NCBI RefSeq assembly: GCF_024267655.1
Contig: NZ_CP100595.1
Coordinates: 2,666,001-2,730,000 of the forward strand
Direction of reading: 5' to 3'
Source of the DNA: Arcobacter roscoffensis
Lineage (GTDB): Bacteria; Campylobacterota; Campylobacteria; Campylobacterales; Arcobacteraceae
DNA length: 64,000 bases
A program made the translations under genes and the position numbers. Positions 34,682 through 53,400 of the stretch are shown piece after piece; within the stretch, counting starts at the first letter, position 1; every line of letters starts with the position of its first letter. The notes beneath the pieces were generated by a model, which saw nothing but the letters and a program-made list of their open reading frames with translations, ran no database searches and was not told where the DNA came from.

Positions 34682-35347
34682 TTAATAAGACTCTAAAATA
34701 TATCCATATTTAAAAGATGATTTTATAAAGCCTTTTGTAGTTTTTTTTCTCACTCTTTTGGCTATAGTAAAAAGAGCATCTAGTGAAAACTGCTCCGTAC
34801 AATAAATATGATTATGTATATCCTCATAGGATACTGGTTGGTTGATTTTTAAGACAAGAGCATTAATAAAAGCATTTTCATTTTTTGAAAGCTCTATTTT
34901 TTGATTTGCTAAAAATAAAGCTTTTTTATCTATGTTCCATTTATAATCATCGATTAGCTTGATATATTTATCTTGTGTTAAATTTTCTACAGCTTGAAAT
35001 AACACTTGTTTTAGCTGTTCCATCTTTACTGGTTTTACTAAATAGCTCACAAGATTCAAAGGAACTACTTTTAATAAATCTTCTGTATTTGTATGTGCAG
35101 AAAATAAAATTAGTTGCGTATTTTTATCCGTCTTTCTAATCTCTTCTACAAGTTCCACTCCACTAAAATGAGGCATGTTTATATCAGTAAAAACTATACT
35201 AGGATTATGCTCTTTATAAATTCTTAATCCTTCAAGTCCATTACAAGCCTTATAAACTGTATCACAAAATAAAGATACATATTTTTCAAATCTATTTAAT
35301 AAAGAGATTTCATCTTCTACAATTAATATTGAAATATTTTTCATCAT
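34682..35347 (-). CDS. Two-component response regulator (OmpR-like)
   Basis: The 221-residue protein has a receiver domain (residues 1-120) with the acidic pair in 'ILIVEDEISLL', the phospho-acceptor aspartate in 'PSIVFTDINMPHFSG', Ser/Thr in 'LILFSAHTN' and lysine in 'YLVKPVKME'. The C-terminal 90 residues fit a winged-helix Trans_reg_C domain in divergent form ('IELSKNENAFINALVL', 'LDALFTIAKRVRKKT', 'FIKSSFKYGYIL'). It is 7 bases downstream of the histidine kinase gene. Its position directly ahead of the giant surface-protein gene suggests it controls that gene. Confidence 0.9.
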   Translation of the reverse strand: MMKNISILIVEDEISLLNRFEKYVSLFCDTVYKACNGLEGLRIYKEHNPSIVFTDINMPHFSGVELVEEIRKTDKNTQLILFSAHTNTEDLLKVVPLNLVSYLVKPVKMEQLKQVLFQAVENLTQDKYIKLIDDYKWNIDKKALFLANQKIELSKNENAFINALVLKINQPVSYEDIHNHIYCTEQFSLDALFTIAKRVRKKTTKGFIKSSFKYGYILESY

Positions 35348-35354
35348 TTACACC

Positions 35355-37199
35355 TTATATTATGATGCTAAATTTAGCACCATCTTTTGTATTTTCCACA
35401 TTTAAAGAACCATTCATGCTATTTTCTATAATACTTTTAGATATGTAAAGTCCCAATCCTGTACCTTCAAACTGATGTTTTGTTGTAAAATATGGTTCAA
35501 ATATTTTAGATATTATCTCCTCTTTGATACCATCTGCATTATCTTCTATACTTAAAACTACTTTGTTATTTAGTTTTTTAGAAATTATTTTTATAGTTTT
35601 ACTCTTTTTTTCTTTCAAAGCATATATTGCATTTGATATTATTGAAATCAAAACTTGTGTATATTCTTCTTTTAAACCAAATAGCTTATCTTCTTTACTT
35701 ACATCTACTATAATCTCTATATCATTTTTATAAAGAGTATTTCCTAATATAATCAAAGCTTTATCCACTGATTGAAAGATATAAAACTCTTTACTTGTTT
35801 TATTTGGTTTAAAATATGTCAGAAAATCTTCTACTGTTTGAGACATATGCTCTATGTTTTCATCTATATGATTCAACTCTTCTTCTAAGTCTCTATCTTT
35901 AAGTTTACCAAGAAGCTTTTTTTCTCTTAAAATAGCAGATGAAAAACTAATAGTAGATAAAGGCTGTCTCCACTGATGAGCAATATTTGCAACCATTTCT
36001 CCCATATCTGCCATCTTTGTTTTTTGATATAATAACAACTGAGACAATTGCTTTTCTTCTTGCATTACTTTAAACTTATATGAAACTAAATATGAAAGAA
36101 TCAGTGCTTCTATTAATATACCTATGCCTATACCTCGTGATGATACATAGTTGAAATCCACAATTCCCATATAAAATAAAATACCATATACACTAAAAAA
36201 TATATAGAAAACATGTGCAGCTAAAAAGATTTTTATAATTTTATTACCTTTTAAATATATAGATATACTTATCCACATAAATACAACAAGAATGTAATTT
36301 AACAATAAAGATAGAAGTTGTATGGAGTGATTAAGATTAATAAATCCATAAATAACATTTATTAAAAATACTGCAATCACACTATTTAAAAACCAATGTT
36401 CTGTTTTATATTTTGATTTAGTATCAAAAATAGTTTGAACAAAAAGAGCTAAAAAAACAGGTACTAACATCAAAGCAAAATTAAATCTAGCAGAGACCAC
36501 TCCATATATTTGAAAATAGTGTGCCAAAGAACCATACATATAAAATATCCAAACAGTAGCAGAAACTAAATATAAAGAGTAATACAAATACTCTTTATAT
36601 TGTGATGAAATGAATATAAGAAAATTATATATAGCTAAAGAAAGTAATAAACCAACAAACAAGACTCCATCAATTTTTTGATATATTAAAAATTGACTTG
36701 ATTCTTTCTGGCTTCTTATTGAAAAATTATAAAAATGATAAGCATAAGTTTTTTGATTTATATATATTATTTTTGTTTGTTTAGGATTTAATAAAAACTC
36801 ATAAATAGAATCAGCACCATTTATATTCATTTTATCTTTTGGAAAACGTTTATTCATTTCTTTAGTATTTAAAAGATTGTTTTTAGCATCTACTTCAAAA
36901 TACTTTATACTTGCATGGGCATATGCTAGTTCTTGATGTAAAAAAAGTTTTTGTGTAGTATTGGTATTATTAAAAAGTTTTATTCTAAGCCAGCTATTCG
37001 TAACCTTTACTCCTAGACTATCAGCATTTTTACCTTTTGAAAATTCAATAGATTTTAAATCTTCAAATTTTAATTTTCTAGTACTATCTATAAAATAATC
37101 TACTTCAAAATTTGTTATATTTGAGCTATTTGAATTTATAATAACTGTTGCATTTGCCATACAAACTAATACAAATAAACAATATATTATAATTCTCAT
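35355..37199 (-). CDS. 7TM-DISM sensor histidine kinase
   Basis: The 614-residue protein has a signal peptide, a periplasmic 7TMR-DISMED2 domain (about residues 20-170, 'SWLRIKLFNNTNTTQKLFLHQE'), seven membrane segments of the 7TMR-DISM type (about 175-380), a HisKA domain with phospho-acceptor 'MVANIAHQWRQPLSTISF', and an HATPase with N box 'QVLISIISNAIYAL', 'IEDNADGI' and 'GTGLGLYISKSII'. The DISMED2 fold is thought to bind carbohydrates or similar ligands outside the cell. It pairs with the response regulator encoded 7 bases later; the likely output is expression of the surface proteins downstream. Confidence 0.95.
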   Translation of the reverse strand: MRIIIYCLFVLVCMANATVIINSNSSNITNFEVDYFIDSTRKLKFEDLKSIEFSKGKNADSLGVKVTNSWLRIKLFNNTNTTQKLFLHQELAYAHASIKYFEVDAKNNLLNTKEMNKRFPKDKMNINGADSIYEFLLNPKQTKIIYINQKTYAYHFYNFSIRSQKESSQFLIYQKIDGVLFVGLLLSLAIYNFLIFISSQYKEYLYYSLYLVSATVWIFYMYGSLAHYFQIYGVVSARFNFALMLVPVFLALFVQTIFDTKSKYKTEHWFLNSVIAVFLINVIYGFINLNHSIQLLSLLLNYILVVFMWISISIYLKGNKIIKIFLAAHVFYIFFSVYGILFYMGIVDFNYVSSRGIGIGILIEALILSYLVSYKFKVMQEEKQLSQLLLYQKTKMADMGEMVANIAHQWRQPLSTISFSSAILREKKLLGKLKDRDLEEELNHIDENIEHMSQTVEDFLTYFKPNKTSKEFYIFQSVDKALIILGNTLYKNDIEIIVDVSKEDKLFGLKEEYTQVLISIISNAIYALKEKKSKTIKIISKKLNNKVVLSIEDNADGIKEEIISKIFEPYFTTKHQFEGTGLGLYISKSIIENSMNGSLNVENTKDGAKFSIII

Positions 37200-37305: not shown

Positions 37306-37345
37306 TAAATATCTTATAAGAAGAAAGAGTTAAACTCTTTCTTCT
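37306..37345 (+). repeat. Right copy of the direct repeat bracketing the surface-protein block
   Basis: It matches 21631-21673 in the same orientation (38 of 40 aligned bases, one 3-base gap). The first part equals the last codons of the glycosyltransferase gene, though no glycosyltransferase is present here; the rest is the hairpin that ends the AMP-ligase gene. Confidence 0.7.
37319..37345. terminator. Hairpin terminator of the adenylating-enzyme operon
   Basis: AGAAGAAAGAG at 37319-37329 pairs perfectly with 37335-37345 around a TTAAA loop, just past the stop at 37354 on the minus strand. Confidence 0.75.
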
Positions 37346-37353
37346 AAGTTTTT

Positions 37354-38820
37354 TTAAAAGATTGTCTCTATTGCCTTTTCTTTAACAATACTTTTGACTA
37401 TTTTTCCATGTTCGTTTATAGGAAATTTATTAAAGATTACTATAGCTTGGGGTCTATATGAACCAAGGTTTTCAATTGCATAATTCATCAAATCTTTATC
37501 TGTAATATTTGAGTCAACTTTGTTAACAATAGCACAAACAGGAACATCCTGATGTATTTGATGATTTAGTGAAAAAGCAAAGGCATCAACTACCTCATCA
37601 TGTTTTAACATTACTTTCTCAATTTGTGATGGATATATATTGATACCATTTAATATCATCATATTATCACTTCTACCTAGAATTATTAAGTGACTACCTT
37701 CAGTAAGCATTCCTAAATCTCCTGGGAAGAACCATTCATCTTTAAAAGCTTTATTTGTAGATTCTGAGTCATTTATATATCCATCTACTAACATATTACT
37801 TCTAATTTTTATTTCACCTATTTTATTAGGATCTAAATCATTCCCTTCTTTATCAACAACTTTTAAATCTACCTCTTTAATAGGAAAACCAACTGTATCT
37901 TCATGTTCAAAAACTTCTTCAGCTTTACATAAACTAACTGTTCCAACTTCATTAATTCCATATCTTACATATATATTTTTTGTTATACTTTTATATATTC
38001 TTTCTCTTAAAGACATAGATACTTTTGAGCCATCTATTACAAGTGCTCTTATATAAGGAAAAACTAGACCCTCAAACTTTTCTTGATTTATTATATTTAG
38101 CAACTGTTCAATATGAAATACTGTCATATACATAACAGAGATTTTAAACTCTTTATATAATAAAAACACATCTAAAGGATACTTAGTTAATACGCAACTA
38201 GAAGCTGATAACAATGCTTGTATATATAAAACTTTTGATGAATAATAACTTATATTAACCAAAGAATGAGCTACATCATCTTTTGAATTATTTAACCAAT
38301 CTAATGAAGCTTTTGCCCTTTGAAGTTGTTGAAAATGACTTACTGGAATTATTTTACTTTTACCTGTTGTTCCTGAACCTACAATATAAATCCAAGGGCT
38401 TTTTGGATTTTTACAATAATTATCATATTCTTCACTACATTCTAATATAAAATTTTCTTGTGAGACTACAGTATATATATTTTCCTTTTTATTATCATCA
38501 GTTAAAATACTTTTTATTTTCAAGGTATCTATTAATTCATCACGTTGAGTTTGAGTAAGACTTTTTAATGATATTAGAGTTGCTCCTATCTTTGAAAGAG
38601 CAAACATAACTATTAATTCTGCATATTCGTCTTTACATTCAGAACCAATAATATCTCCTGTTAAAATATCGTTCTCATTTAAAAATATAGAAAAGTTATC
38701 TATATGTTTTTTTAATTCCTTATAGCTAATTATGCTATCTCCATAATAAACCGCTTCCTTGTTGGAATATTTTGAAGCTTGTAGTTTTACTATATCATAT
38801 AAGTTTGTCATTTCATTCAT
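37354..38820 (-). CDS. AMP-forming adenylating enzyme (acyl-CoA synthetase/NRPS-A-like), enzyme 1
   Basis: The 488-residue ANL-superfamily enzyme has the ATP loop 'VGSGTTGKS' at 148-154, 'YGINEVG' at 287-293, the ribose-binding aspartate in 'FFPGDLGML' (GD at 367-368), the hinge 'LGRSDNMMILNGINIYP' at 381-397, and a C-terminal 'GKIVKS' with the adenylation lysine. It would activate a carboxylic acid as an acyl- or aminoacyl-adenylate. The ATP loop lacks the usual KG end (GKSKIIPVSH), a trait shared with the two other adenylating enzymes in this cluster, so they form one paralogous subfamily. The start overlaps the GNAT-BKACE gene by 8 bases. The carboxylate is unknown. Confidence 0.85.
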   Translation of the reverse strand: MNEMTNLYDIVKLQASKYSNKEAVYYGDSIISYKELKKHIDNFSIFLNENDILTGDIIGSECKDEYAELIVMFALSKIGATLISLKSLTQTQRDELIDTLKIKSILTDDNKKENIYTVVSQENFILECSEEYDNYCKNPKSPWIYIVGSGTTGKSKIIPVSHFQQLQRAKASLDWLNNSKDDVAHSLVNISYYSSKVLYIQALLSASSCVLTKYPLDVFLLYKEFKISVMYMTVFHIEQLLNIINQEKFEGLVFPYIRALVIDGSKVSMSLRERIYKSITKNIYVRYGINEVGTVSLCKAEEVFEHEDTVGFPIKEVDLKVVDKEGNDLDPNKIGEIKIRSNMLVDGYINDSESTNKAFKDEWFFPGDLGMLTEGSHLIILGRSDNMMILNGINIYPSQIEKVMLKHDEVVDAFAFSLNHQIHQDVPVCAIVNKVDSNITDKDLMNYAIENLGSYRPQAIVIFNKFPINEHGKIVKSIVKEKAIETIF

Positions 38821-40186
38821 TAATTTTTAATCCTAATTTCTCTTTAACATTACTTGGCTTTGCAATTTCTCTACTTAATTGTTCAGTTATATTTACTAAT
38901 CTTTGAACTAGTAGTTTATTACTTGCTAAAATCTTTTTTTCATTATCATAATAGATATTATCTTCTATTCCTACTCTTACATTACCTCCTGCAACAATTG
39001 ATGCAATATTAATTGGTAACTGAAATTGTCCAAGTCCTCCAGCAGACCAAATTGAGTTCTTAGGTAATGATGTATAAATATGGGCTAAGTCTTTTATTGT
39101 TCCAGAAGCTGTGTTTAAATTACCGAGTAAAATATTGAAATATTTTACTCCGTCTATTATTTCATATCTTTCTAAATATTTAGCAAGATTTATCATACCT
39201 GCATCAAATATTTCCAATTCAGGTTTAATATTTTTTTCTTTCATTTTAAATGCTAATTCAGTAACAGTATCAATATCATTAATACTTGCACCAGAGATAA
39301 AATTTAATGACCCTAATGTTAGGCTTGCCATATCAGGCTTTCCTAAACCTATTATATCAAGAACCTCTGATCTTTCTTCAATTGATTGACCATTTCGCCC
39401 TGAAGTAGTTGCACAACATATTAATTCAGGTCTTTCTTTTTTTATCCTACTAATAATTTCTTCATAATATCTAGCATCATTTGTCATTACTCCATCTTTA
39501 TCTCTTGCATGAATATGAACAATTGAAGCTCCCAAATCATGAACTAATATAGCATCATTTACTATTTCTTCAATAGAAACTGGAACATACTTATTCAAAG
39601 ACTTATTAGGTACAATACCTGTTAACGCTACATTTATAATAAGTGGTTGATATGGCGTTATAGGATAAGATTCATTTTCTTTTTTATACTCTTCTTTAAA
39701 TTTCTCCTTTTTATCTTTAGCTTTCATATATTCATCTAAATTCATTTCCAAAGTGGTCCAATAATCAACATCGTTTTCTCCAAAAGAAATAAGCTTTTTA
39801 ATTTTTCCTATTTCTTTGTATTCAAAATGCTTTTTATACCAAACTATAGTTTCTTTTCTATCTGAATTTGTAATAACTGATTTTATGCCTTTTTTATACA
39901 TAACTTCTAGTCTTTTTAATTGTAGTGCTTTACCAATTCCACTACCTAAATATTCAGGTAGAACCACTAATAATGTAGTTTTTCCCTGCTTTTCATTTAA
40001 AATTTTATAACCTGATAAGCCAACTATTTTATTCTCTACTTTAGCCACATAATAACACTCAAAATCAAAATCTTCCATTTCAACAGATGGTATATGATGC
40101 ATATTCCAATATCTTAAAATATTTAAGAACTCTTTTCTTTGACAAGTATTTGCCTTTTCTATATAAAAATCCAAGTTTACTCCCAA
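38813..40186 (-). CDS. GNAT acetyltransferase fused to a BKACE (DUF849) beta-keto acid cleavage enzyme
   Basis: Residues 1-150 form a GNAT domain with the acetyl-CoA loop 'LPEYLGSGIGKALQ' at 76-89. After a Lys/Glu-rich linker (155-172), residues 180-457 form a BKACE domain: 'INVALTGIVPNKS', zinc-site 'HIHARDKDG' (H224, H226), 'ELEIFDAGM' and 'VRVGIEDN' (E408). From memory, the founding enzyme Kce uses H46, H48 and E230; the 184-residue spacing is the same here. BKACE enzymes condense a beta-keto acid with acetyl-CoA to give acetoacetate and a new CoA ester, or the reverse. Both domains use acetyl-CoA. It lies between two adenylating genes in one operon (gaps +6 and -8). I know of no characterised protein with this fusion. 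Confidence 0.8.
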   Translation of the reverse strand: MGVNLDFYIEKANTCQRKEFLNILRYWNMHHIPSVEMEDFDFECYYVAKVENKIVGLSGYKILNEKQGKTTLLVVLPEYLGSGIGKALQLKRLEVMYKKGIKSVITNSDRKETIVWYKKHFEYKEIGKIKKLISFGENDVDYWTTLEMNLDEYMKAKDKKEKFKEEYKKENESYPITPYQPLIINVALTGIVPNKSLNKYVPVSIEEIVNDAILVHDLGASIVHIHARDKDGVMTNDARYYEEIISRIKKERPELICCATTSGRNGQSIEERSEVLDIIGLGKPDMASLTLGSLNFISGASINDIDTVTELAFKMKEKNIKPELEIFDAGMINLAKYLERYEIIDGVKYFNILLGNLNTASGTIKDLAHIYTSLPKNSIWSAGGLGQFQLPINIASIVAGGNVRVGIEDNIYYDNEKKILASNKLLVQRLVNITEQLSREIAKPSNVKEKLGLKINE

Positions 40187-40192
40187 ATCATT

Positions 40193-43100
40193 TTAAACAA
40201 AATTTACTTTTTCTATTTTATCAAAAGGACTATACTCACTATAAAAAATATTCTGCGAGTCAATAACTATTAATGCATCAACTTTACTATTTAAAAGTAA
40301 AGCATTACATCTTGAAATAAAACTATTATCATAAAAATAAACTTCATCATTTCGTTCATTTAAAGTTATTGATTGAGTTACTAAATAACAGTTGTAGCCT
40401 TTTTTTACATACTCTTCATGTTTAAGTTTAGCATTAGAATAAATATTATCATCATTACCTATAAAAATTTCTATTGGAATTCTACCTTCATCACTAATAT
40501 AATTATCTAAATATTTTCCTAAACTATTTTTTGATATTTCTCCTGCACCTAAAGCTGGTGCATAATTAACTTCATTTATTATTGTTTCAGTTTTATGCCA
40601 AGGTTTAGAAATATCCTCAGTAATAATATCAACACCTGCTACATCTAATTCAAATAAATTTGCAGCTTGTATTGCAATATCAATATTATCTTTATGAATA
40701 ATACTTGTTACATCTTCATCAATACCGCCATCTTCAGTTGTTTCTATTTCTCTCAAAGCAATAAAAAGTCCTTTTTTAGGTATGGAGTTTAGATTAAATC
40801 CATTTTGTTCTAAAACACTCAAAGCATAATCATCTTTAAAGAATGAATATTTTTGTTCCCAAAAAAACCTATTACTTTCTTTTTCATTTTCCATATCTAT
40901 CAAAGTTTCTATACTGTTTACACCATCTGCATAAACTCCTATTGGTAATCTTTTCACAGCATATAAAAGTTTATTATTAGATATAAATACCCTGTGACAT
41001 ACTCCTCTTACTTGTTTCTCTACAATAACTTTTTTACTAATTGATAATGAATAGGCTTTATTAAAAGCATTAAAAAGCTGTTCTTTATTGTAAATATTTA
41101 CACTTACGCCCTCACCTCTTTCCATATCAATAGGCTTTATAACTACAGGATAAGATATTTGGCTTGCGATAGATAATGCCTGTTCGTGATTGTTTGCAAA
41201 GCCATGTATAGGAGCAGGAAGATTTGCCGTTTTTAACATATTTGCAGAAATTACTTTATTTGCTGATATGTTCTGTCCCATAGCACTATCAGAAGAGGTA
41301 CTACTTCTATCAAATTTTTTACCTTTACTTCCCCATCCAAGCTGGTAAATCCCACTTCCCAAATGAAGATATGGTATATTTTTTCTAAATACTTCTTTAA
41401 AAAAAACAACTCTATAACTACCTTGAGGCATAGTGTTTAAAATAGGTTTTAAAAGTTCCTCTGCACAACGATTTATAATAAAATCCATGTTTTCAAAAGT
41501 TAGTTCAATATTTAACATTTGGTATAAATATTTAAAAGAATTATTTAAAATATTTATATAATGCTCTAATGGTATTTGATCTATGTAACTTAATCTTAAT
41601 TGAATATTATAACTATTTTCATCTTCTTCAATTCTACATAGTTCCGAATTATCATAAACAGGTATTTGTACAATATGACAAAATCTTTCAATCAAAAGAA
41701 TCGCTCTTTGACACATAGAATATATATTATTCTCACTATTTAGATGGCATGTTTCAATATCAAAAACTTTACGAAGCCACCTATCTAATAAATCAAAACT
41801 AGTTATATCTATTTTTTCAAGTTTAACAGTAAACTTTTTAGTGTTTCTTAATAGCTTTTTATATATTTCTTCTTTTATTTCATTTAAATTAATTTTTCCT
41901 AAATCAGTTCTTGGTATTTTACTTAAAAAAACTATTTCATAGGGAGAACTAAATTTTAATTTACTGGAACAAAAGTTTAATAGCTCAGCAGTGGTTATTT
42001 TACTTGGTGAACTAACTTCAACACCGCAAATAGGAATATCTTGTAAGTTTTCATCTTTTAAAGAAATACAAAAAGCATCATTGACTAATTCATGTTCTAA
42101 AAGTCTATTTTCTATTAAAGAAGGATGGATATTTATACCATTTACAATCATCATTCGATCAGATCGACCATGATGAATAAGTTCATTAGATTCATTAATC
42201 ATTCCTATATCTCCAGGATAAAACCAACCATCATTAAAATACTTATTAGTATTAACTTCATCATTTAAATAACTACTTATCATTCCAAAACTTTTAACTC
42301 TTATATGTCCAATAGTATTAAGAGGTAATTTATTGTTATTTTCATCAACTATTTGAACTTTTACATTGTTTAGAATAGATCCTACAGTTTTCTCAGTTTT
42401 ATAAACTGCCTTAGGCTTTGCTGAGCTAATTCCACCAAGCTCATTAGTTCCATAAGTTATATATAAATTTTTACTTAAATGCTTTTTAATTCTCTTTTTC
42501 AAATCTTCACTAATTGATGAGCCACCTAAAGATAACACTTTTAAAAAAGATAGATGTTCTTTATTATTATCACTTATCTTTGCTAAGATATTTTCTATGT
42601 GATATACACTTGTGTGAAGAACGTTTATTTTATACTTTTTACAATGATTTACAAAATCAAAAACTTCATCTTCAAATATAAAATAACTTCCACCTACAAA
42701 TAAAGTAGCTAAAAATCTAATCTTTGTACTATTAAAATTCATTTTAATTAAAGATGCAACTATATCGCTTTCAGATATGCTTGTTGATTCTTTAGAAATT
42801 TCAATTCTTTTTAATTCTAAAGATTGACTTACCTCAAAAAGTTTAGGTTTTCCTGTTGTTCCTGAACCAACAATTACTTGCCAAATTGAAGATGGCTCAA
42901 CTGAATAGTCTTTTGATATTTTTTTGCAATTAATAAAATCTTCATATTTTATACTTATTAATTCAAGTTCATCAATCGTACTTAGTGTACTATCTGTTAA
43001 AAAATATTTTGCATTGCTTTGTTCAACTAATTCTTCTACTTGTTTATTATTAAATTCTTTAGGCAAACTTATAAAAGTAAGCCCCATTTGTGCAGATGAC

Positions 43101-43312
43101 AACATAGCTAGAATAGTTAAATATTCATCATTAAAACTGTGAAAAACTATATCACCTTTTATTACCCCTTTAGAATCAAGATAAAAACTTAACTTTGAAA
43201 CATCATTATATAATTGTTGATAACTTATAGAATTAGACTTATAATAAACTGCTGTTTTATTAGGTTTTTTATTTAGTTGAATTTTTATAATATCTACTAG
43301 GTTAATGGGCAT
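40193..43312 (-). CDS. Adenylation domain fused to cyanophycin-synthetase-like ATP-grasp ligase (1039 aa)
   Basis: Residues 1-485 are a complete adenylating enzyme: 'GSGTTGKPK' at 149-157, 'YGTNELGG' at 287-294, 'FYPGDIGMI' at 364-372, 'HGRSDRMMIVNGINIHP' at 381-397, and 'GKINLNE'. Residues about 495-1039 resemble the front half of cyanophycin synthetase: an N-terminal domain ending in 'GSGIYQLGWGSKGKKFDRS', then ATP-grasp from about 680 with 'PVVIKPIDMERGEGVSVNI' and metal-binding 'INEVNYAPALGAGE'. No Mur-ligase domain or carrier protein is attached. The ATP-grasp half should form an amide through an acyl phosphate, while the first half activates a carboxylate as adenylate, so the protein may make two bonds. 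It is the first gene of a three-gene operon. Confidence 0.8.
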   Translation of the reverse strand: MPINLVDIIKIQLNKKPNKTAVYYKSNSISYQQLYNDVSKLSFYLDSKGVIKGDIVFHSFNDEYLTILAMLSSAQMGLTFISLPKEFNNKQVEELVEQSNAKYFLTDSTLSTIDELELISIKYEDFINCKKISKDYSVEPSSIWQVIVGSGTTGKPKLFEVSQSLELKRIEISKESTSISESDIVASLIKMNFNSTKIRFLATLFVGGSYFIFEDEVFDFVNHCKKYKINVLHTSVYHIENILAKISDNNKEHLSFLKVLSLGGSSISEDLKKRIKKHLSKNLYITYGTNELGGISSAKPKAVYKTEKTVGSILNNVKVQIVDENNNKLPLNTIGHIRVKSFGMISSYLNDEVNTNKYFNDGWFYPGDIGMINESNELIHHGRSDRMMIVNGINIHPSLIENRLLEHELVNDAFCISLKDENLQDIPICGVEVSSPSKITTAELLNFCSSKLKFSSPYEIVFLSKIPRTDLGKINLNEIKEEIYKKLLRNTKKFTVKLEKIDITSFDLLDRWLRKVFDIETCHLNSENNIYSMCQRAILLIERFCHIVQIPVYDNSELCRIEEDENSYNIQLRLSYIDQIPLEHYINILNNSFKYLYQMLNIELTFENMDFIINRCAEELLKPILNTMPQGSYRVVFFKEVFRKNIPYLHLGSGIYQLGWGSKGKKFDRSSTSSDSAMGQNISANKVISANMLKTANLPAPIHGFANNHEQALSIASQISYPVVIKPIDMERGEGVSVNIYNKEQLFNAFNKAYSLSISKKVIVEKQVRGVCHRVFISNNKLLYAVKRLPIGVYADGVNSIETLIDMENEKESNRFFWEQKYSFFKDDYALSVLEQNGFNLNSIPKKGLFIALREIETTEDGGIDEDVTSIIHKDNIDIAIQAANLFELDVAGVDIITEDISKPWHKTETIINEVNYAPALGAGEISKNSLGKYLDNYISDEGRIPIEIFIGNDDNIYSNAKLKHEEYVKKGYNCYLVTQSITLNERNDEVYFYDNSFISRCNALLLNSKVDALIVIDSQNIFYSEYSPFDKIEKVNFV

Positions 43313-43346
43313 AAGAGAACTCTTTTTAATTATTTTATCATAAAGT

Positions 43347-43352
43347 AGTATA
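43347..43352 (+). promoter_or_regulatory. -10 box TATAAT upstream of the SDR gene
   Basis: TATAAT at 43347-43352 in the 94-base divergent region could start a transcript with a leader of about 50 bases for the SDR gene; see also the box at 43395. Confidence 0.35.
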
Positions 43353-43394
43353 ATCTACATCTAATAAGTATAAAGAAAATTAATAAATTAATTG

Positions 43395-43400
43395 TATAAT
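43395..43400 (+). promoter_or_regulatory. -10 box TATAAT placed for a leaderless SDR transcript
   Basis: TATAAT ends exactly six bases before ATG 43407, the same geometry as at 4201 for the YgjP-like gene. No ribosome site fits between. Confidence 0.45.
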
Positions 43401-43406
43401 TTAAGT

Positions 43407-44195
43407 ATGAATAAGAAAACATCAAAAAATAACAATCCCGTGGCTTTCATAACTGGTTCTAGTAAAGGTATCGGTCTAGAGATTGCAAAAAAGCTTGCAA
43501 AAAAAAACTTTAATATTATACTTAATGGAAGAACAGATTCTAAATATTTAAAAAAAGCAAGACAAGACATATTATCAGAATCAAATGTTGATGTACTTTG
43601 TTTACCTTTTGATATTTCAGATGTTTCACTGCATCAAGTAATGGTAAAAAAGATAATAGACAAATTTGGAAGAATTGATTGTCTTATTAATAATGCAGGT
43701 ATTTCAGTTGACAAAAGAGGTGATATACTAAATGTCACTACAAAATCCTTTGATAAATTAATTTCATCAAACCTAAAATCACATTTTTTCTTAACTCAAA
43801 ATATTGTAGAACATATGATAAAAAGTGATTCAAAAAACTTTAAAAGTATTATAAATATTTCATCTTCAAATGCTCAAGCAGCATCAATAAATAGAGCAGA
43901 ATATTGCATATCAAAGTCAGCAATTGAAATGATGGGTAAGTTATTTGCAGTTCGTTTAGCTAAAGAAAATATAAATGTTTATAATATACTTCCAGGGCTT
44001 ATAAAAACGGATATGACAAAACCTGTAAAAAAGAAGTATAACAAGCTTCTAAAAAAAGGTTTCTCTCCAATTAATAGATGGGGAAAACCAAAAGATATTG
44101 CAAAAGTTGTATCTTTTATAGCAAGAGGTAAAATGTCATTTGTAACAGGTGAATCAATTCATATAGATGGGGGATTACTAATCCCTAGGTATTAG
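43407..44195 (+). CDS. Short-chain dehydrogenase/reductase (FabG-like)
   Basis: The product, 262 residues from ATG 43407 (an upstream TTG at 43392 is inside a -10-like box and less likely), is a classical SDR: 'ITGSSKGIGLEIAKKL' for NAD(P)H, 'LINNAGIS', catalytic serine in 'INISSSNAQA', 'YCISKSA' with the Tyr-x3-Lys pair, and 'LPGLIKTDMTKP'. FabG-like SDRs reduce 3-ketoacyl thioesters or related ketones. The C-terminal 'VTGESIHIDGGLLIPRY' is standard. It precedes an adenylating enzyme by 16 bases and is divergent from the operon holding two more, so it probably reduces an intermediate of the same pathway, possibly a BKACE-derived keto compound. Confidence 0.85.
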   Translation: MNKKTSKNNNPVAFITGSSKGIGLEIAKKLAKKNFNIILNGRTDSKYLKKARQDILSESNVDVLCLPFDISDVSLHQVMVKKIIDKFGRIDCLINNAGISVDKRGDILNVTTKSFDKLISSNLKSHFFLTQNIVEHMIKSDSKNFKSIINISSSNAQAASINRAEYCISKSAIEMMGKLFAVRLAKENINVYNILPGLIKTDMTKPVKKKYNKLLKKGFSPINRWGKPKDIAKVVSFIARGKMSFVTGESIHIDGGLLIPRY

Positions 44196-44211
44196 TAAGT
44201 GATAAAAAATA

Positions 44212-45714
44212 ATGATAAAAAATAATATAGAAGACAATTTATCAAAATTATTTGATAAACTATTTATCAATTGCAAAGAGAGTATCTCAAATAATATTGC
44301 AATTATAAATGATGATAGAACAATTACCTATTCACAACTAGATGATATATTAAACCACGTAATAACTAATTTAAATAATTTGAAACTAGATTCAAATGAT
44401 ACAATAGCTTTAAGAATAAATAACCCTTTAATGTTATTTGTCTTTTATCTATCTTTACTAAAGATGAAAATATCTCATATTATAGTTAACCCAAATGTAA
44501 CTTATGATTTACAAGAAAAAGAACTTAATATAATTAAAACATCAGTTATAATCCAAGATTTTATAGATGATAGAGATCTTACTAAAACAGTATTTATTAA
44601 TGAACATTTAGGTTTTTCTATTTCTGAAAATGATTTTAAAGTTAAAAAAAATATTAAATCAGAATTAGATAAAAATATAGCTTTTATTTTTTATGGTTCA
44701 GGAACAACTAATAATCCAAAAAAAATACCAATAACTTGGTATTCATTCGCAGAACAAGTAAAAAGAGACTCAAGTTTTATTGATTTTAACAAAGGTGAAA
44801 AATATTACACTTGGACAGAGTTATACTATAATACCCCTAAAAGAAGACTATTTAGTATGCTCTTAGAAGGATTGACAATTTATATCCCAAGTAAAAAACC
44901 AGAGGATATTGTATCTTTTTGTTTAAAACATAATATAAATCATTTAGCTTTAACAACTTCTCAATCTAAAATCATGTTATCAAATATCTTGTCTTCAAAT
45001 AAAGAAAGTTTTTTGAATAAATTTTCAACATTAAAGTCATTAGTAGTATCTAGTTCAATTATCAATGAAAACTTAAGAAAAAATATTCTTAAATACATTA
45101 CTAAAAATCTTTATATAGGCTATGGCTGCAATGAAATAGGTGAAGTTACAATCTTAAAACCTAATGAAATAAATCAATATAAACATAGCGTTGGTAAACC
45201 ATTAGAAGGTATTGAGTTGAAAGTTTTTGATGATAACTATAATATTATAGAACATGAAGAGGTAGGTAATATCGGTATAAAATCTAATCATATGATTAAT
45301 GCTTACTATCAAAATGAATATGCAACTAGTATTTCATTTAAAAATGGTTTTTATTTTCCTTTTGACTTAGGTTTAAAAAAAGATGATTCAACATTAATAT
45401 TTCATTCTAGAAAAGATGATTTAATAATATTCTCAGGTGTAAATATTTATCCAAAAGAAATAGAAGAAGTATTAGAGAAACATCCATCAGTATTAGAAGT
45501 ATCAGTTTTTTCTCTAAAAAGTGAAGATGAAGAAGAGTATCCATTTGCAGCTGTTGTTTTAAAAACTCATAGTACAGAAGAAGATTTGATAAATTGGGCT
45601 AAAAAATATCTAGGATGGAAAGTTCCAATGAAAATATTCTTTTTTGATAAACTTCCTAAAAACACTTCAGGTAAAATATTAAAAAGAGAAATTATAAAAA
45701 CAATCTTTTCATAA
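44212..45714 (+). CDS. AMP-forming adenylating enzyme (acyl-CoA synthetase/NRPS-A-like), enzyme 3
   Basis: The 500-residue ANL enzyme has 'FYGSGTTNNPKKIPITW' as ATP loop, 'YIGYGCNEIGEVT', 'YFPFDLGLK' in which the ribose aspartate is kept but the usual Gly before it is Phe, the hinge 'HSRKDDLIIFSGVNIYP', and the adenylation lysine in 'NTSGKILKREI'. All core catalytic residues are therefore present. It is the most diverged of the three adenylating enzymes in the cluster: NN replaces GK in the ATP loop. It may activate a different acid. It follows the SDR gene on the plus strand; the start codon region holds a direct duplication of GATAAAAAATAAT. Confidence 0.8.
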   Translation: MIKNNIEDNLSKLFDKLFINCKESISNNIAIINDDRTITYSQLDDILNHVITNLNNLKLDSNDTIALRINNPLMLFVFYLSLLKMKISHIIVNPNVTYDLQEKELNIIKTSVIIQDFIDDRDLTKTVFINEHLGFSISENDFKVKKNIKSELDKNIAFIFYGSGTTNNPKKIPITWYSFAEQVKRDSSFIDFNKGEKYYTWTELYYNTPKRRLFSMLLEGLTIYIPSKKPEDIVSFCLKHNINHLALTTSQSKIMLSNILSSNKESFLNKFSTLKSLVVSSSIINENLRKNILKYITKNLYIGYGCNEIGEVTILKPNEINQYKHSVGKPLEGIELKVFDDNYNIIEHEEVGNIGIKSNHMINAYYQNEYATSISFKNGFYFPFDLGLKKDDSTLIFHSRKDDLIIFSGVNIYPKEIEEVLEKHPSVLEVSVFSLKSEDEEEYPFAAVVLKTHSTEEDLINWAKKYLGWKVPMKIFFFDKLPKNTSGKILKREIIKTIFS

Positions 45715-45754
45715 TTTCAAGAATGAAGCCTAAAAGCTCCATCCTGCTTGAAAT
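45714..45754. terminator. Probable hairpin between convergent AMP-ligase and tpsB genes
   Basis: Outer arms ATTTCAAG and CTTGAAAT enclose a second stem with two G-U pairs and a six-base loop. It overlaps the end of tpsB. No clear U-run follows on either side. Confidence 0.4.
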
Positions 45755-47424
45755 ATAATTCTACTATTTCTTTCTTTTTCAGTTGTTACATCTTTACTAT
45801 TTGCTTTCCATGCAACTTGTAATTTTGCAAAGTAGTCTTTATAATTTAAATAATATCCTAAACCAACATCTTGTAATGACTCCCTTGATACAGAAATAGA
45901 ATTATTATCATCATTTGATATAAATGCATTTGCATAGTCATAGAAGATACCAACTCTACTTGAAATACCATTTGTAGTAGGAAGTGTGTATTTTAATTCA
46001 GCATTAAAAACATAACCATTTTCAGCACTAAATTCTCCAGATGGATATAACTTAACCCCATCAGTTCCACCTAAAGACAAATCTTCTGTACCATCTAAGT
46101 TTTTATCTGATAAAGCATATTGCATATTTAATCTAGTATCTAGAGTAACTTTGGGAGTTAATTCTAAAACATTTGATAAATTTAAATTAACTTTTGAATA
46201 ATTACCTTCTGTATCAACTCCAGCCTTGTTTGTGCTCTTATCAGAAGCCTCATCAAAACTTAAATTTCCATATGTAAAGTTAAAACCTACTTCTGAAACA
46301 CTATTTAGCCCATAGGCTAAATAGTTTTTATCATAAGCCAGTCCTAAATTAATTGATTTTATACTTCTTGGATTGATTTTAGTACCTGAAAATTCATCAT
46401 TTAAATCTTTATGTGAAACATCCATTGATGCATATAAATTTTCTAATCTTGTTCTTTTAATTGGATAAGTTAAGTTTAAATTAGTAGTTTTAGAATCTCC
46501 TGTATATACATCATCTGCTACACCAGATAGTTTAACTAAAGAATAAGTCGTATGAGAATAAGAAACTTCACCTCTTAAACCATTTGGCATTAAGGGCATG
46601 CTATAAGCTAATCTTCCATTTTTTAAATCAAACCCATTTGTAGTTAATCCAGTAAAAGACAATTTATCTCCTATTTTAAAAGGAGAGTTTGCATTTAAAC
46701 CTACAATAAATCTGTTTTTACCGGTATTTTTACCACCTGTGTTATCAACTACAATATAACCATCAAATGCCTTGCTAGCTTGTGTTTGCATATCAAAATC
46801 AGAAGTTGCTACTTTCTTACCAGGCATAACATCTGCTTGTGTTACTACTACACCTGGAGTGTCATTTATAATCAGCATAACTCTTTCAAGAGTATCTGTT
46901 GATATAATATCACCCCTATTTTTTGCATCATCAAGCATTGCTTGAACAACTTCATCTTTTACTAATGAGTTATTATTTAATAAAAACTCTCCATAATTAC
47001 CTTCAATAATAGCAATTTCAAGTACATTTTTACTTGCTTTTAAATCTTGTACAGGTACATAAGCTCTTGCAACAAAATAACCTTTTGATCTATAATATCT
47101 TGTAATTTTAGCTGTAAGTTCACTAATTTGTGTGAAAGTCAAATTTTTATTAGCATAATCTTTCGTTAAGTCTTGTAACTCTTCACTTTTAATATTCTCA
47201 TTACCACTAAAACTAAAACCATTTATAAGTACTTTCTTCCCACTATCAGCCATAGGTGCTTTATATGTCTTAGTTTCAAACTGAGGAATTTCAATTTTCT
47301 CTTTTTTTATATTTGGAACTTTTGTATCTTTTTCTATATCTGAAATATTTGGTACATTAGCACCAAGTAAAATACTTGATGCTAAAAGTGATACTGATGC
47401 TATTTTTAAACTTGTGTTTTTCAT
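45730..47424 (-). CDS. Two-partner secretion outer-membrane transporter (TpsB, FhaC/ShlB type)
   Basis: The 564-residue protein has a signal peptide (ending SSILLGA), POTRA domains ('VLINGFSFSGNENIKSEELQ', 'RYYRSKGYFVARAYVPVQD') in the first 210 residues, and a 16-strand-type barrel ending 'SRIIFQAGWSF' with a C-terminal phenylalanine. The barrel holds the loop-6-like 'LRGEVSYSH' and late 'VGIFYDYANAF' (the GxxxDxG-type region). It would recognise the TPS domain of the large exoprotein encoded 18 bases upstream and carry it across the outer membrane. A start at ATG 47424 gives a normal signal peptide. Confidence 0.9.
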   Translation of the reverse strand: MKNTSLKIASVSLLASSILLGANVPNISDIEKDTKVPNIKKEKIEIPQFETKTYKAPMADSGKKVLINGFSFSGNENIKSEELQDLTKDYANKNLTFTQISELTAKITRYYRSKGYFVARAYVPVQDLKASKNVLEIAIIEGNYGEFLLNNNSLVKDEVVQAMLDDAKNRGDIISTDTLERVMLIINDTPGVVVTQADVMPGKKVATSDFDMQTQASKAFDGYIVVDNTGGKNTGKNRFIVGLNANSPFKIGDKLSFTGLTTNGFDLKNGRLAYSMPLMPNGLRGEVSYSHTTYSLVKLSGVADDVYTGDSKTTNLNLTYPIKRTRLENLYASMDVSHKDLNDEFSGTKINPRSIKSINLGLAYDKNYLAYGLNSVSEVGFNFTYGNLSFDEASDKSTNKAGVDTEGNYSKVNLNLSNVLELTPKVTLDTRLNMQYALSDKNLDGTEDLSLGGTDGVKLYPSGEFSAENGYVFNAELKYTLPTTNGISSRVGIFYDYANAFISNDDNNSISVSRESLQDVGLGYYLNYKDYFAKLQVAWKANSKDVTTEKERNSRIIFQAGWSF

Positions 47425-47442
47425 ATTTTTTATTCCTCTATC

Positions 47443-50400
47443 CTATTTTTCACTATCTTTTACTAAAAATGTTTTATTACCTACAACAAAGAATACTTGA
47501 TCTACACCTTCAGGTAAACTAACTCCTCCGTTAACTAATTCAACTATTGAGTTATTTGAAAGAGGAACTTTTACATCTGGATTTACAGGTGCATCATTAG
47601 CAACATTGTTATTTGTTTGTTTTTGTTTTATTTGAGTTAAAGTAATTAGTTCAGTAACTAACTGCTCTAATTCTGGTTTTGAAACAATATTTGTATCAAT
47701 GTTAATTTTTACCTCAGGAGCATTTGGAGGTGTAACAGCTATAAACTCTGGTGCTTTTGGAATAATAACATATTTATCATTATCTTCATTATATGTAATA
47801 TTATAATTTGAAGCTTCTACTCCATTCCCTAAATATATATCATAACTACCTGTAGCTTCACCTTCTTCTCTACTTAAAGTTCCAGTTACATCACTTAAAG
47901 AATCTGTTGAAGCTAAACCTAAACCTTTTGATGAATCAACAAATACATCTAAATCCACTTCTGGATTTCCAAAGATTTTTGACTTAGAGTCAGCTACAAT
48001 AGTAATATCTCTTAGATTAATATCTGCACTTGTACTTGCTGTTGTATTTACTATATTATAGTTCCCTGCATCTTCTCCACTTTTCCCTAGACTTGATACT
48101 GTAACTGCTTTATCTTCACCTACATTTTTATCTGTAAAATATGAACTTCCACTAAAGCTTACTGAATCCTCTCCTATTACTCCACTTGAAGAAAGTGTTG
48201 TACTCGCATTGATCCCACCATCATATATCTTATCTTGTGCTACTGCGCTTACTGTGATATCTTTTGCTGTGATTGTTGCTGTTGTATTTGCCGTATTATT
48301 TGTAATATTATAGTTCCCTGCATCTTCTCCACTTTTTCCTAGACTTGATACTGTAACTGTTTTATCTTCACCTACATTTTTATCTGTAAAATATGAACTT
48401 CCACTAAAGCTTACTGAATCCTCTCCTATTACTCCACTTGAAGAAAGTGTTGTACTTGCATTGATCCCACCATCATATACCTTATCTTGTGCTACTGCGC
48501 TTACTGTGATATCTTTTGCTGTGATTGTTGCTGTTGTATTTGCCGTATTATTTGTAATATTATAGTTCCCTGCATCTTCTCCACTTTTTCCTAGACTTGA
48601 TACTGTAACTGTTTTATCTTCACCTACATTTTTATCTGTAAAATATGAACTTCCACTAAAGCTTACTGAATCCTCTCCTATTACTCCACTTGAAGAAAGT
48701 GTTGTACTCGCATTGATCCCACCATCATATATCTTATCTTGTGCTACTGCGCTTACTGTGATATCTTTTGCTGTGATTGTTGCTGTTACATTTCCTGAAT
48801 CAGTTAAACTATAGTTACTTGAATCTTCACCATTTAATGCAAAATTTAAACTTACAGTTTTATCTTCACCTACATTTTTATCAGCAAAATTTGCATTTGA
48901 AGTAAATGACACAGAATCTTCACCTAAAACTCCTGATAAACTTCCTTCATTACTTAAGCTTGCATTAGTTGTTGCATCATATGTTTTATTAGAAGCAATA
49001 ATTCCAGATACACTTAATTCTTTTTTAGTAATTGATAATTCACCTGTTTGCTCACTATTATCTTCAAATGCATACCCTAGAGCATTTGATAATCCGCTAT
49101 TATAAGTTACATCATAATCACCAACAACTCTATATCCTGAGCTTGAAACACTACCAGACTCTGTAGTAAATGAAGCAGTTCCTGTTGCACCTAATTCATC
49201 AGCTGTATCACCATTTACAAAACCACTATATGAAGCCGAATATTCAGTTGGTACACTCTGTCCATATGTTACTTCTTGTTCTTCAGCAGATACTTTTAAA
49301 ATAGGTTGTTCTCTATAAATAGCATATGTATCTTCACCTAAAGAAGCAGTAAAGTTACTAGCACTTTCATCACTGTTGTATCTTGAATTACCCTTTGATA
49401 TAATATTAGATAAACCTAAACTTCCTTCTATACTACCTGAGAAAAGTTTAACTCTTGAATCTTCTCCAGCTGTTATAGTAGAGTTATTATTAATTACAAT
49501 GTTTCCACCAGTTTTTGTACCAGCTGAACTATCTTTACCTGCATTTAATACTATTGCATTTGAGTAGCCTAATGTAGTTTCAATATTACTATCAACTGTA
49601 ATGTCTCCAGTTTTTGTTGCAATATCAATTGTACCACTTGCAGATATTCCTTCTGTTGAAGAGATTGTTTTAATATTTAATGCTTTAGTATTTAATAAGT
49701 TCACACTGCTTGCTGAACTTACAGCTAATTCATTTAAATTATGACCAGCTGTAGGTGCTAAATTATATGTAGTATTATTTCCTATTAACTCTAAAGAATT
49801 TGCAGTAATTGTTCCAGTAGCACTAACAGTTGAATTAGCTGTTTTTGTCTCAACTAATATATCTTCTGCATTTAAATCGCCATTAATATTTACAGTTCCT
49901 GATGTATAAGATTGATTACCTTTTGTTGAAATTCCATCCAATGATATAGAACCATCTTCTCCATTATCAAATGAACCTTGATTATAAGAGTCAACAATTA
50001 AAGTATTAAGTTGATTAGTCCCTGATGTTGTACTACTAACAATACTTACATCACCTGCATTATGAGAATAATAATCGCTTAATTCATGAGTAGTTCCATC
50101 ACTAGTATTAAAGTCATCATTTCCAGTGTTTGTTGAAGTATTAATATTTAAAGTTAAGTCCTCTTTTGTAGCTGATAATCCACCATCTATTGTTACATCA
50201 CCTGCACTTGCATTTTGTTTATTGTTTGTATCACTCCATGTATCAATTTGAACACTGTTTGCAAGCTGAACATCACCAGTTAAAGATATATCAGCTTGGT
50301 TTGTGTATAAATTTCCATGAAGAGTAATCGTCTTACCATTATAAGTTTGTGTACCATTTTCATCATTATGAGTTGTATAAACACCAGGTAGTGAAATATC

Positions 50401-53400
50401 TCCTGCTTGAGCGTCTTCCCCACCAGCTGTATTTATATTTATAGATTTAGTAGATAAATTACTTTTATAATATGTATCCGAAAGTACTACATTTCCACCA
50501 TTTTTACCGACTGCTGTTGTAGAAGTATCAAATGTAGTATCACCCCAAGTATATGTTTGAAGATTTCTACCAGAAAAAATAATATCACCTGCATCTGCAA
50601 CATTACCTTGCTCTGTGTCAATTGTAAAATTACTTGTTTGAATTCTTGTATCACCAGTTGATTTAAAATCTCCATTTAAATAAATATTTCTATATAAATA
50701 GATATAGCCATCATTTGTATCTGTACTTCCCTTAGAAGTTAAAGTAAGATTTTTTAAGAAACTTCCAGCATTATTTGATAGCTCACTATTTAGTAAAATA
50801 TAATTTCCACTTGAATCACTCGAACTTGAATCTATTAATAATGAGTTTGCATCCTCACCTACACTTGATATTGTTCCATAAGTATCAATACGTCCAGAGT
50901 TACCAGTTGAAGTGCTATTTGACATATCATCAGCATTACTATCGATATTAATAGACCGCATCAATTCAATTCCACTTGAACCATAAAGATTTATACTTCC
51001 ACCATTTGTTAAAATATCACCATCTAATGTAAGTTTTGAACCTCTAACGTAATAATTTCCTGTACTCAAACTATTTCCACTGAATCCATCAGTTGATTTT
51101 GTACCAATTTGAATATTTCTACTATATGCAGTAAAATTAAAACTTTTGTTTCCATTGCTTAATTTAACTTTATCTGAATCTAAAATAATACGTGAACCAT
51201 CATCTACTATATTTAAAGCATCTCCATTTGCATAATCTACATTTATAGATTGAGCTTTATTTGAGCTTTGTAATGTAATATTAGTATCATCAAAATGATT
51301 TTCACTTAATTCATGAATACTTACATTACCACCTGAATATAAATCAACAGATAATGTATCGTTTTGGCTATCATATGAACCTTTTTCGATTTGAATATCA
51401 TAACCATCATTACCTATACCTTGATTTACATCACTTGAATAATTAGTAAAACTCACTGTTCCTGCAGTAATTTGTTTTACTGGATTTTCTGAATCATATA
51501 AGTTTTGAGCTTTGATACTTGAGTTATTACCTGAACTAATAGTTGCTGTGAAATTAGATTTTCCAGTATTTATAGAATCTTCACCAAAAATTATATCTCC
51601 ATTATATGAAACTATAGAAAGTGATTTTGAGCTACCACTATTATTTGATTTATCATAACTAGTTCCAAGGTTAGTTCCTGTACTATTATTAAAGTTTTCT
51701 CCATCTGTACTACCAGATATTGTACTTACAAGTAAGTCTTCACCCGTTGTAGTTAGATTAAAAAAGTCTCCATTTGAAGACAATACACTATGTTGACCTG
51801 CTTGATTTCCATATCCACTAAAAGTTAAAGAAGAATAATCACTATTTGCAAGATATGAACTTCCTCCATTATTGAACAATATTAAACTATTTTCACTATC
51901 TACTTCAAGAGGATTTGTTATGGTACCAATATTTGTTCCTCTAAGATAAATTGAATTTGCTCCAGAAACTTCACTTATATTATCAAATTTTGCAGAATCA
52001 GAACTTACAATATTTGTAGCATACAAAGAGAACGAGGGAGAGTAATAATTTTTTGTAAGCATTGCATTATTTTCTAATTCTATATTTGAAGCTGTTAAAG
52101 ATACAGATGTTGGGAATACAGATTTTACAGTTTCACTAAATGCATAATTGTTAGAATCATCACCTTTCGTGATTACTCCATCTGTTTGAACTAACATATT
52201 TCCATTTGTTACATTTGCTAAAACATGACCTGCACCAGTACTATTTGCATCATCCATTATATTTATACTTTGAGTACCTGTTGTAGAAGAACTAACAGTT
52301 AAATCAATACTTCTAAATATCTGCTTATTTATTTCACTTAGATATGTATTACCTAATGTATTTGTAATATTTAAAGTTCTACCATAAGAGTTTATTCTAT
52401 ATGATGAACTTTCTTCTCTATTATTTCTCCCAGCAGTTTGTGAACCTTGAATTTTTATAGGATTTAAAGATGTTCCTATCTCACCTTTTGCTATTAGTCT
52501 AACATCAGAAGGAGTTACTATATCAGCAATTGAACTATCAGTACTTCCACCTATTATTGAACCATTTGCAGAAGACAATATTAAATCATCTTGTGAACTT
52601 ATTTGGTAATAGTAATATCTATTTCCACTGTTGAAATATCTATAATAGTTATCTATATAAAGTTGTGATTTATTTAAACTATAAGTTGGACTATCAGTAG
52701 CAGCTGAGTTATCTGCAAGTGTAATATCATCATTTACTTTAATATCTATATTACCAGCACCTACATCAATAAAACTTCCTGTAGACATTGTAAACTTTTC
52801 ACCTGAAGCAGTTACAGTATCATAAGTTCCACTTACACTTCCTACATAAAAATTACCATCATTTGTAGAGATACTACCTTCTGCTCCAAAGTTTATATCA
52901 CCTGTATTATTAGAATCAATGTCTGCATTTAATACTACATTTAATCTTCCACTTGTTGAAGATATTGATTTATTAATATTAATATCTTTATTTGCTTTTA
53001 AAGTAAGAGTAGTAGCGCTTGAACCAGTTTTTTCAATAGTATCATTGATAGTAATATTACCATCATCTTCTCCAGTACTAGCACCTGTAGCAGTCGTTGT
53101 ATCAAGTGTAACATTTGTAGTATTTAAAGCTGTAGAAATAGTATCACCTGAAATAGATGTACCACTTGTACTATCAGAACCAGAAGAAGTAACTTCTATA
53201 TTAACTGGATCTATAAGCCATGTACCAGTTTTACCCTCTTTTGATTTTGTAGAAATTTTTATATCTTCATCAATATTTACTTCTTTACCTGATGTTTCAA
53301 TAAACCCACCATCAGTTGAAGTATTAGACTCAGCTTTTATTTCACCTGAAATATTTGCTGTCCCACCATGAGCAAACATTTCAACCTTACCAAATAAATC

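Follow-up and report, generated by a model that had tools for sequence, protein, structure and literature searches.

A GNAT-DUF849 fusion paired with a CphA-like ATP-grasp ligase marks a candidate carrier-free biosynthetic cluster in Arcobacter roscoffensis

The assembly of amides without carrier proteins, by ATP-grasp enzymes together with amide synthetases of the ANL family, is established for E-64, cystargolide and belactosin (PMC12568646, PMC11427300). In the cyanophycin synthetase TeCphA1, the residues E215, H267, N394, S396 and R458 are involved in the recognition of primer or aspartate or in the stabilisation of an intermediate (PMC9427784). For the DUF849 family, a 2026 preprint reported that all beta-keto acid cleavage enzymes (BKACEs) carry a Tyr at the position where BsfD, which transfers acetyl rather than cleaving, has a Phe (PMC12871164). 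In the window analysed here, a stretch of 64,000 nucleotides of the A. roscoffensis genome (contig NZ_CP100595.1, positions 2,666,001 to 2,730,000), relatives of these enzymes lie together at one locus, and in the literature searched we found no published description of a cluster combining a GNAT-DUF849 fusion with an ATP-grasp. We consider it more likely than not that this cluster turns free acids, activated with CoA or AMP, into an amide or a short peptide-like metabolite, and does so without carrier proteins.

A first-pass annotation had placed five reading frames in two divergent packed sets between 37354 and 45714, and all five were recovered there (Table 1), with domain calls in agreement: Pfam AMP-binding in P0001, P0003 and P0005, GNAT and BKACE in P0002, and SDR in P0004, the last scoring 332.8 bits against its NCBIfam model (cut-off 250). 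On the minus strand, the A1 and GNAT-DUF849 genes overlap by 8 bp and a gap of 6 bp separates the latter from the fused ANL-ATP-grasp gene, and at the other side the TpsB-type gene ends only 15 bp from A3. For the SDR, the ATG at 43407 is a more likely start than the TTG at 43392, and comparison with homologues suggests that the true start of GNAT-DUF849 lies four codons inside the annotated frame. Promoter-like matches within the cluster did not exceed chance level, a search of Rfam gave no match, and the GC content of the cluster is 0.26, versus 0.27-0.31 elsewhere in the window.

Table 1. Features of the locus, in window coordinates.
Feature	Coordinates	Strand	Basis
12-pair palindromic terminator-like stem, just past the minus-strand gene set	37319..37345	none	
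Response regulator and sensor kinase, neighbours	34682..37199	-	
A1, stand-alone ANL adenylating enzyme, 488 aa (P0001)	37354..38820	-	Reading frame, Pfam AMP-binding
GNAT-DUF849 (BKACE) fusion, 457 aa (P0002)	38813..40186	-	Pfam, homologue alignment
ANL domain A2 (residues 1-485) and CphA-like ATP-grasp with N domain and degenerate Mur remnant (486-1039) (P0003)	40193..43312	-	
Divergent intergenic region between both gene sets	43313..43406	none	
SDR reductase, FabG-like (P0004)	43407..44195	+	NCBIfam PRK12745
A3, 500 aa, the ANL adenylating enzyme that diverges most among the three (P0005)	44212..45714	+	Pfam AMP-binding, tree
TpsB-type outer-membrane pore, cluster membership uncertain	45730..47424	-	Sequence read by eye
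TpsA-type giant secreted adhesin, cluster membership uncertain	47443..54198	-	

The TpsA of the TpsB/TpsA two-partner secretion pair (45730-54198) has several near-identical repeats near its C terminus and an RFRILKGGK leader, which is also found in adhesins beside ATP-grasp genes of two other genomes (G077, G098). On the other flank, a secreted protein of 3958 residues with NHL-like and cadherin/Ig-like repeats (22594-34470) adjoins the two-component system, whose two proteins have relatives (28.9% and 27.0% identity) in G077, next to that genome's adhesin and ANL-ATP-grasp gene (L033).

To follow the conservation of the cluster, the fused protein was searched against 200 relatives, a profile of the ATP-grasp half and PF05853 against 397 class genomes, and a GNAT-DUF849 profile against 399 genomes of the order; these samples overlap, and their scope is the bacterial class and plasmid records. 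Only 7 of the 397 class genomes carry the CphA-like ATP-grasp family, which is thus rare, and each of the 14 sites in that sample that exceed the DUF849 cut-off has a frame of 450-501 residues, corresponding to the GNAT fusion. Altogether, 16 GNAT-DUF849 loci were found in 15 genomes. An ATP-grasp gene is the direct neighbour at 15 of these 16 loci, which are related and not phylogenetically independent. Twelve of the pairs lie on the same strand, from overlapping to 45 bp apart, and three are tail to tail; the exception is G380, with no ATP-grasp beside its fusion. The partner is CphA-like in G000 (the window genome), G078, G434, G444 and G445, and also, on the opposite strand, in G371, while a protein of about 330 residues with weak RimK-like Pfam matches occupies the place in G330, G371, G381 (twice), G412, G424, G469, G475, G494 and G564; the profile of the latter family retrieved no solved relative. 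In the tree of the fusions the two partner types are clustered, with few changes. Since two distinct ATP-grasp types occupy the same place, function rather than mere inheritance is suggested.

The pair occurs in at least eight different surroundings, with an ornithine-cyclodeaminase-like (OCD-like) gene in G444 and G445 (in G053 this gene stands beside a lone ATP-grasp), GCS2-like genes in G381, G494 and G564, and a P450, a TauD-type oxygenase and a conserved protein of about 155 residues of no assigned family in G475 (L081) and G494 (L082). Judged by family, the P450, TauD, GCS2-like and OCD-like additions look like a natural-product set, and the GNAT-DUF849 loci resemble a family of small biosynthetic clusters in which the core stays the same and the tailoring varies. 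The idea that all six modules of the window form one conserved pathway did not survive this comparison, as only the pair of GNAT-DUF849 and ATP-grasp recurs; the SDR and A3 unit is absent from every other locus examined, and the stand-alone A1 was seen only at the window locus among them. Because neither the SDR nor A3 was found with the core elsewhere, only position assigns them to it, and together with the stand-alone A1 they may be local additions that could belong to something else.

Some further features of these loci were recorded. The ATP-grasp family of about 330 residues (L083:9283-10281; L053, L078-L085, L102, L104) is often present in several copies around GNAT-DUF849. Small OMP-like genes adjoin the RimK-type loci of G381, G469, G475, G494 and G564, and those flanking L081, L082, L083, L084, L085 and L102 belong to one family with an SGFYIGGAYS motif. 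Proteins of TIGR03032/DUF4915, for which no naming paper was found in the literature searched, lie near two CphA-like loci (L050:977-2437, L053:15217-16665).

The likeness of the ATP-grasp half of P0003 to CphA, proposed earlier, was borne out, at 218.7 bits to the cyanophycin synthetase profile, far under its cut-off of 877. By profile and by fold its closest solved proteins are CphA1 and CphA2, which the AlphaFold2 model (m0ecbb90f5c30; mean pLDDT 77, pTM 0.66) matches across nearly the whole length. When 15 ATP-grasp domains were compared in TeCphA1 numbering, the catalytic K220, K261, R309, D431 and E450 were kept in all 15 and R323 in 14, the second ATP-grasp of G444 (G444b) having Lys; all six are present in the window protein. 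By contrast, E215, H267, N394, S396 and R458 are not kept there, being replaced by N, R, T, E and a gap, and the Mur-ligase P-loop GTNGKTT, found in CphA1 only, is gone, with GNDDNIY at the aligned place. Cyanophycinase was found by TIGR02069 in none of 13 genomes, with controls giving matches in 5, and the cyanophycin synthetases retrieved in the plasmid searches were ordinary ones. Since the catalytic residues are kept, the recognition residues and Mur P-loop are lost and cyanophycinase is missing, this domain probably works as an amide-forming ATP-grasp and not as a cyanophycin synthetase; cyanophycin synthesis was rejected on the changed residues and the missing cyanophycinase.

The DUF849 half of P0002 matches PF05853 with 250 bits (cut-off 24.8) and the Kce equivalog with 243.6, below its cut-off of 382. 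The zinc ligands of Kce, His46, His48 and Glu230, are kept as H224, H226 and E408 in P0002, and together with E143, R226 and D231 they are conserved in 15 of 15 fusions aligned. In the same 15, Tyr145 of Kce is replaced by Phe (F327 in P0002), and Glu14 by Val or Ile (Val in P0002); for Glu14, E143, R226 and D231 we assume the functional roles given by the Kce structures. The reaction on beta-keto acids that had been assigned to this domain is qualified by the Tyr to Phe and Glu14 to Val changes. As Phe stands where the characterised cleavage enzymes have Tyr, cleavage is not assured, and this half of P0002 may fall outside the canonical beta-keto acid cleavage enzymes. Phe also occupies this position in the uncharacterised solved DUF849 proteins 3no5, 3chv and 3fa5, and for this reason the replacement was downgraded from a proof of BsfD-like chemistry to a lead. 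Plasmid searches (595 records) retrieved DUF849 proteins, none of them covering 80% of P0002. Two unfused remote DUF849 proteins from elsewhere in the family, those of G031 and G016 (L057, L058), have Ile in place of Kce E143 and Asn in place of D231, and are probably not cleavage enzymes.

With respect to the adenylating enzymes, the ATP loop described earlier as lacking a terminal KG is indeed common to the three (GSGTTGKSK-II, GSGTTGKPK-LF, GSGTTNNPK-KI), but its Lys is present and only the Gly after it is missing. A1, A2 and A3 fall into a single group with the fused ANL domains of G077 and G078, with support of 100/99 in a tree of 22 sequences, in which long branches were flagged. This agrees with an origin of the three by duplication within one subfamily; however, A1 is the sister of the G078 domain and A2 of the G077 domain, so that the duplication behind A1 and A2 seems to predate this genome, and for a recent duplication of all three inside it the tree gives no support. 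A scan of genome contigs for wider homologues gave just one remote ANL protein. In a motif alignment the A7 Asp, the A8 hinge and the A10 Lys were present, and these enzymes are therefore likely to be active. The stretch of A1, A2 and A3 taken as the A4 region has no Asp, in an alignment that contained no NRPS domain; in NRPS adenylation domains an Asp of this region binds the alpha-amino group of the substrate. The motifs do not decide between CoA thioesters and amides as products. The ANL-ATP-grasp fusion occurs in three genomes (G000, G077 and G078), two of them with the DUF849 fusion. In G078, a protein of 1472 residues (L038:55-4473) joins one ANL domain to two successive CphA-like ATP-grasp domains.

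The lack of a carrier protein at the locus was confirmed, and since the sole PP-binding domain of the genome (395898-396098) is some 2.3 Mb distant in linear coordinates, this lack is a property of the whole genome beyond this stretch. Likewise, no transporter for small molecules was seen, although the next gene encodes the TpsB-type pore of the adhesin, to which the earlier statement that transporters are missing does not extend. Of the carrier-free amide or peptide-like pathway first proposed, the ligase-rich, carrier-free gene set with its linked, recurring core stands, but not the six-module unit. We infer the chemistry and the product from the enzyme families, as follows. In the core, GNAT-DUF849 would prepare a building block that the ATP-grasp would join to an amine via an acyl phosphate. 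In the proposed order of steps, an organic acid would be adenylated by A3 and/or A1 and handed on to CoA or straight to an amine, after which the SDR would reduce a beta-keto group. The zinc-dependent DUF849 domain would make or exchange a C-C bond with acetyl-CoA, and the GNAT domain would N-acylate an amino group, using acetyl-CoA or the acyl-CoA from its partner domain. The ATP-grasp would then activate the remaining carboxylate and couple it to an amine, possibly fed by the fused A2 domain.

Against this pathway speaks that the locus shows neither an exporter for small molecules nor a gene for resistance, and the giant adhesins next door suggest another role, in which the cluster would make a small group and attach it to a giant secreted adhesin, the neighbouring TpsA being the substrate. 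Other secreted proteins are known to have modifying enzymes of their own that act in this way. We regard such adhesin modification as unlikely and nevertheless as a serious rival, owing to an unexplained association. Of the 12 CphA-like ATP-grasp loci whose surroundings could be read, five have an autotransporter, a TPS protein or a DUF4347 giant protein no more than 5 kb away, where uniform placement would give 0.14 (P about 1e-7), a figure to be read with the protein families having been picked after the neighbours were seen, with accessory genes sharing hot spots and with several of the genomes coming from one genus. In G077 the adhesin lies 62 bp upstream of the ATP-grasp gene on the same strand; in G089 (L036:89-13050) the ATP-grasp gene is the fourth and last of a packed set with genes for a DUF4347 giant protein, an HlyD-like and an M50-peptidase-like protein; and the loci of G053, G088 and G123 lie by other giant repeat proteins. 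However, the genes downstream in G100 match those of G089 yet no adhesin is present, G434, G444 and G445 likewise show no adhesin association, the loci of G434 and G445 lying among housekeeping genes, and peptide or protein targets of a ligase are not readable from its sequence. The wider proposal that GNAT-DUF849 marks class-wide carrier-free clusters with interchangeable ATP-grasps, whose products decorate or act with giant adhesins, is equally speculative.

A further explanation is that the locus is a catabolic operon, whose BKACE would be a true one and cleave a beta-keto acid made by the SDR and ANL genes from an environmental acid, with the ATP-grasp as an incidental neighbour. In its favour, the zinc site is intact, and acid degradation often involves DUF849, SDR and acyl-CoA-ligase-like genes. 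We find this improbable, since the constant partner is the ATP-grasp rather than a gene of an acyl-CoA pathway, a CoA-transferase, thiolase or dehydrogenase was not seen nearby, and the Tyr145 and Glu14 replacements run through all fusions aligned. A storage or osmoprotectant pathway, yielding either a polymer that resembles cyanophycin or, as in N-acetylglutaminylglutamine amide (NAGGN), an N-acetylated dipeptide amide, would fit the CphA1/CphA2 matches, a weaker one to the NAGGN synthetase TIGR03103 (102.4 bits, cut-off 569) and the joint occurrence of GNAT and ATP-grasp. It is made very unlikely by the lost recognition residues and P-loop and the missing cyanophycinase, by scores far under the equivalog cut-offs and by the finding of no amidotransferase or asparagine-synthase-like partner in the 34-49 kb part of the window. 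Least probable of all is a chance assembly of accessory genes between the adhesin and two-component systems: the plus-strand genes are not conserved with the core and the stretch is low in GC, but the core pair is conserved and repeatedly relocated, so that its chance assembly is already improbable, and the fused ANL-ATP-grasp recurs in three genomes.

Under the favoured reading, a carrier-free amide or peptide-like pathway, GNAT fused to DUF849 beside an ATP-grasp would serve as a sequence hallmark for clusters that carrier-based searches miss, since carrier proteins are absent from them. The locus also contributes a ligase in which adenylating and ATP-grasp parts are fused, as well as a variant of DUF849. 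Few natural products have been described from this bacterial class, and if products are found, its small-molecule chemistry would be opened.

Compared with Kce and other BKACEs, the window fusion has the DUF849 fold family, the zinc ligands, E143, R226 and D231 in common and differs in its N-terminal GNAT domain and in the two replacements. BsfD of the flavophos phosphonate cluster (PDB 9zsc) is likewise a DUF849 member of a natural-product cluster with Phe at the Tyr position, but its chain of 299 residues has no space for a GNAT domain and it carries a phosphonate-specific loop (PMC12871164). The synthesis of N-acetylglutaminylglutamine amide (TIGR03103) also employs GNAT and ATP-grasp jointly on a peptide-like product, whereas here the GNAT is fused to DUF849 rather than to the ATP-grasp and the amidotransferase gene is absent from the locus. 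The N domain and ATP-grasp with a degenerate Mur-like tail recall CphA2 (PDB 7ta5, 8fxh/8fxi), from which, as from CphA1, the window protein departs in its changed CphA1 recognition residues, its shorter tail and the ANL domain in front, and in the missing cyanophycinase. Cystargolide and belactosin (CysC, CysD, CysF) and E-64 (Cp1B, an ATP-grasp, and Cp1D, an ANL amide synthetase) share carrier-free amide assembly with the window cluster, and the accessible parts of their reports do not mention a GNAT-DUF849 fusion (PMC11427300, PMC12568646). The window cluster differs from them in being without recognised warhead genes, in having its ANL and ATP-grasp enzymes fused, and in an ATP-grasp that is CphA-like.
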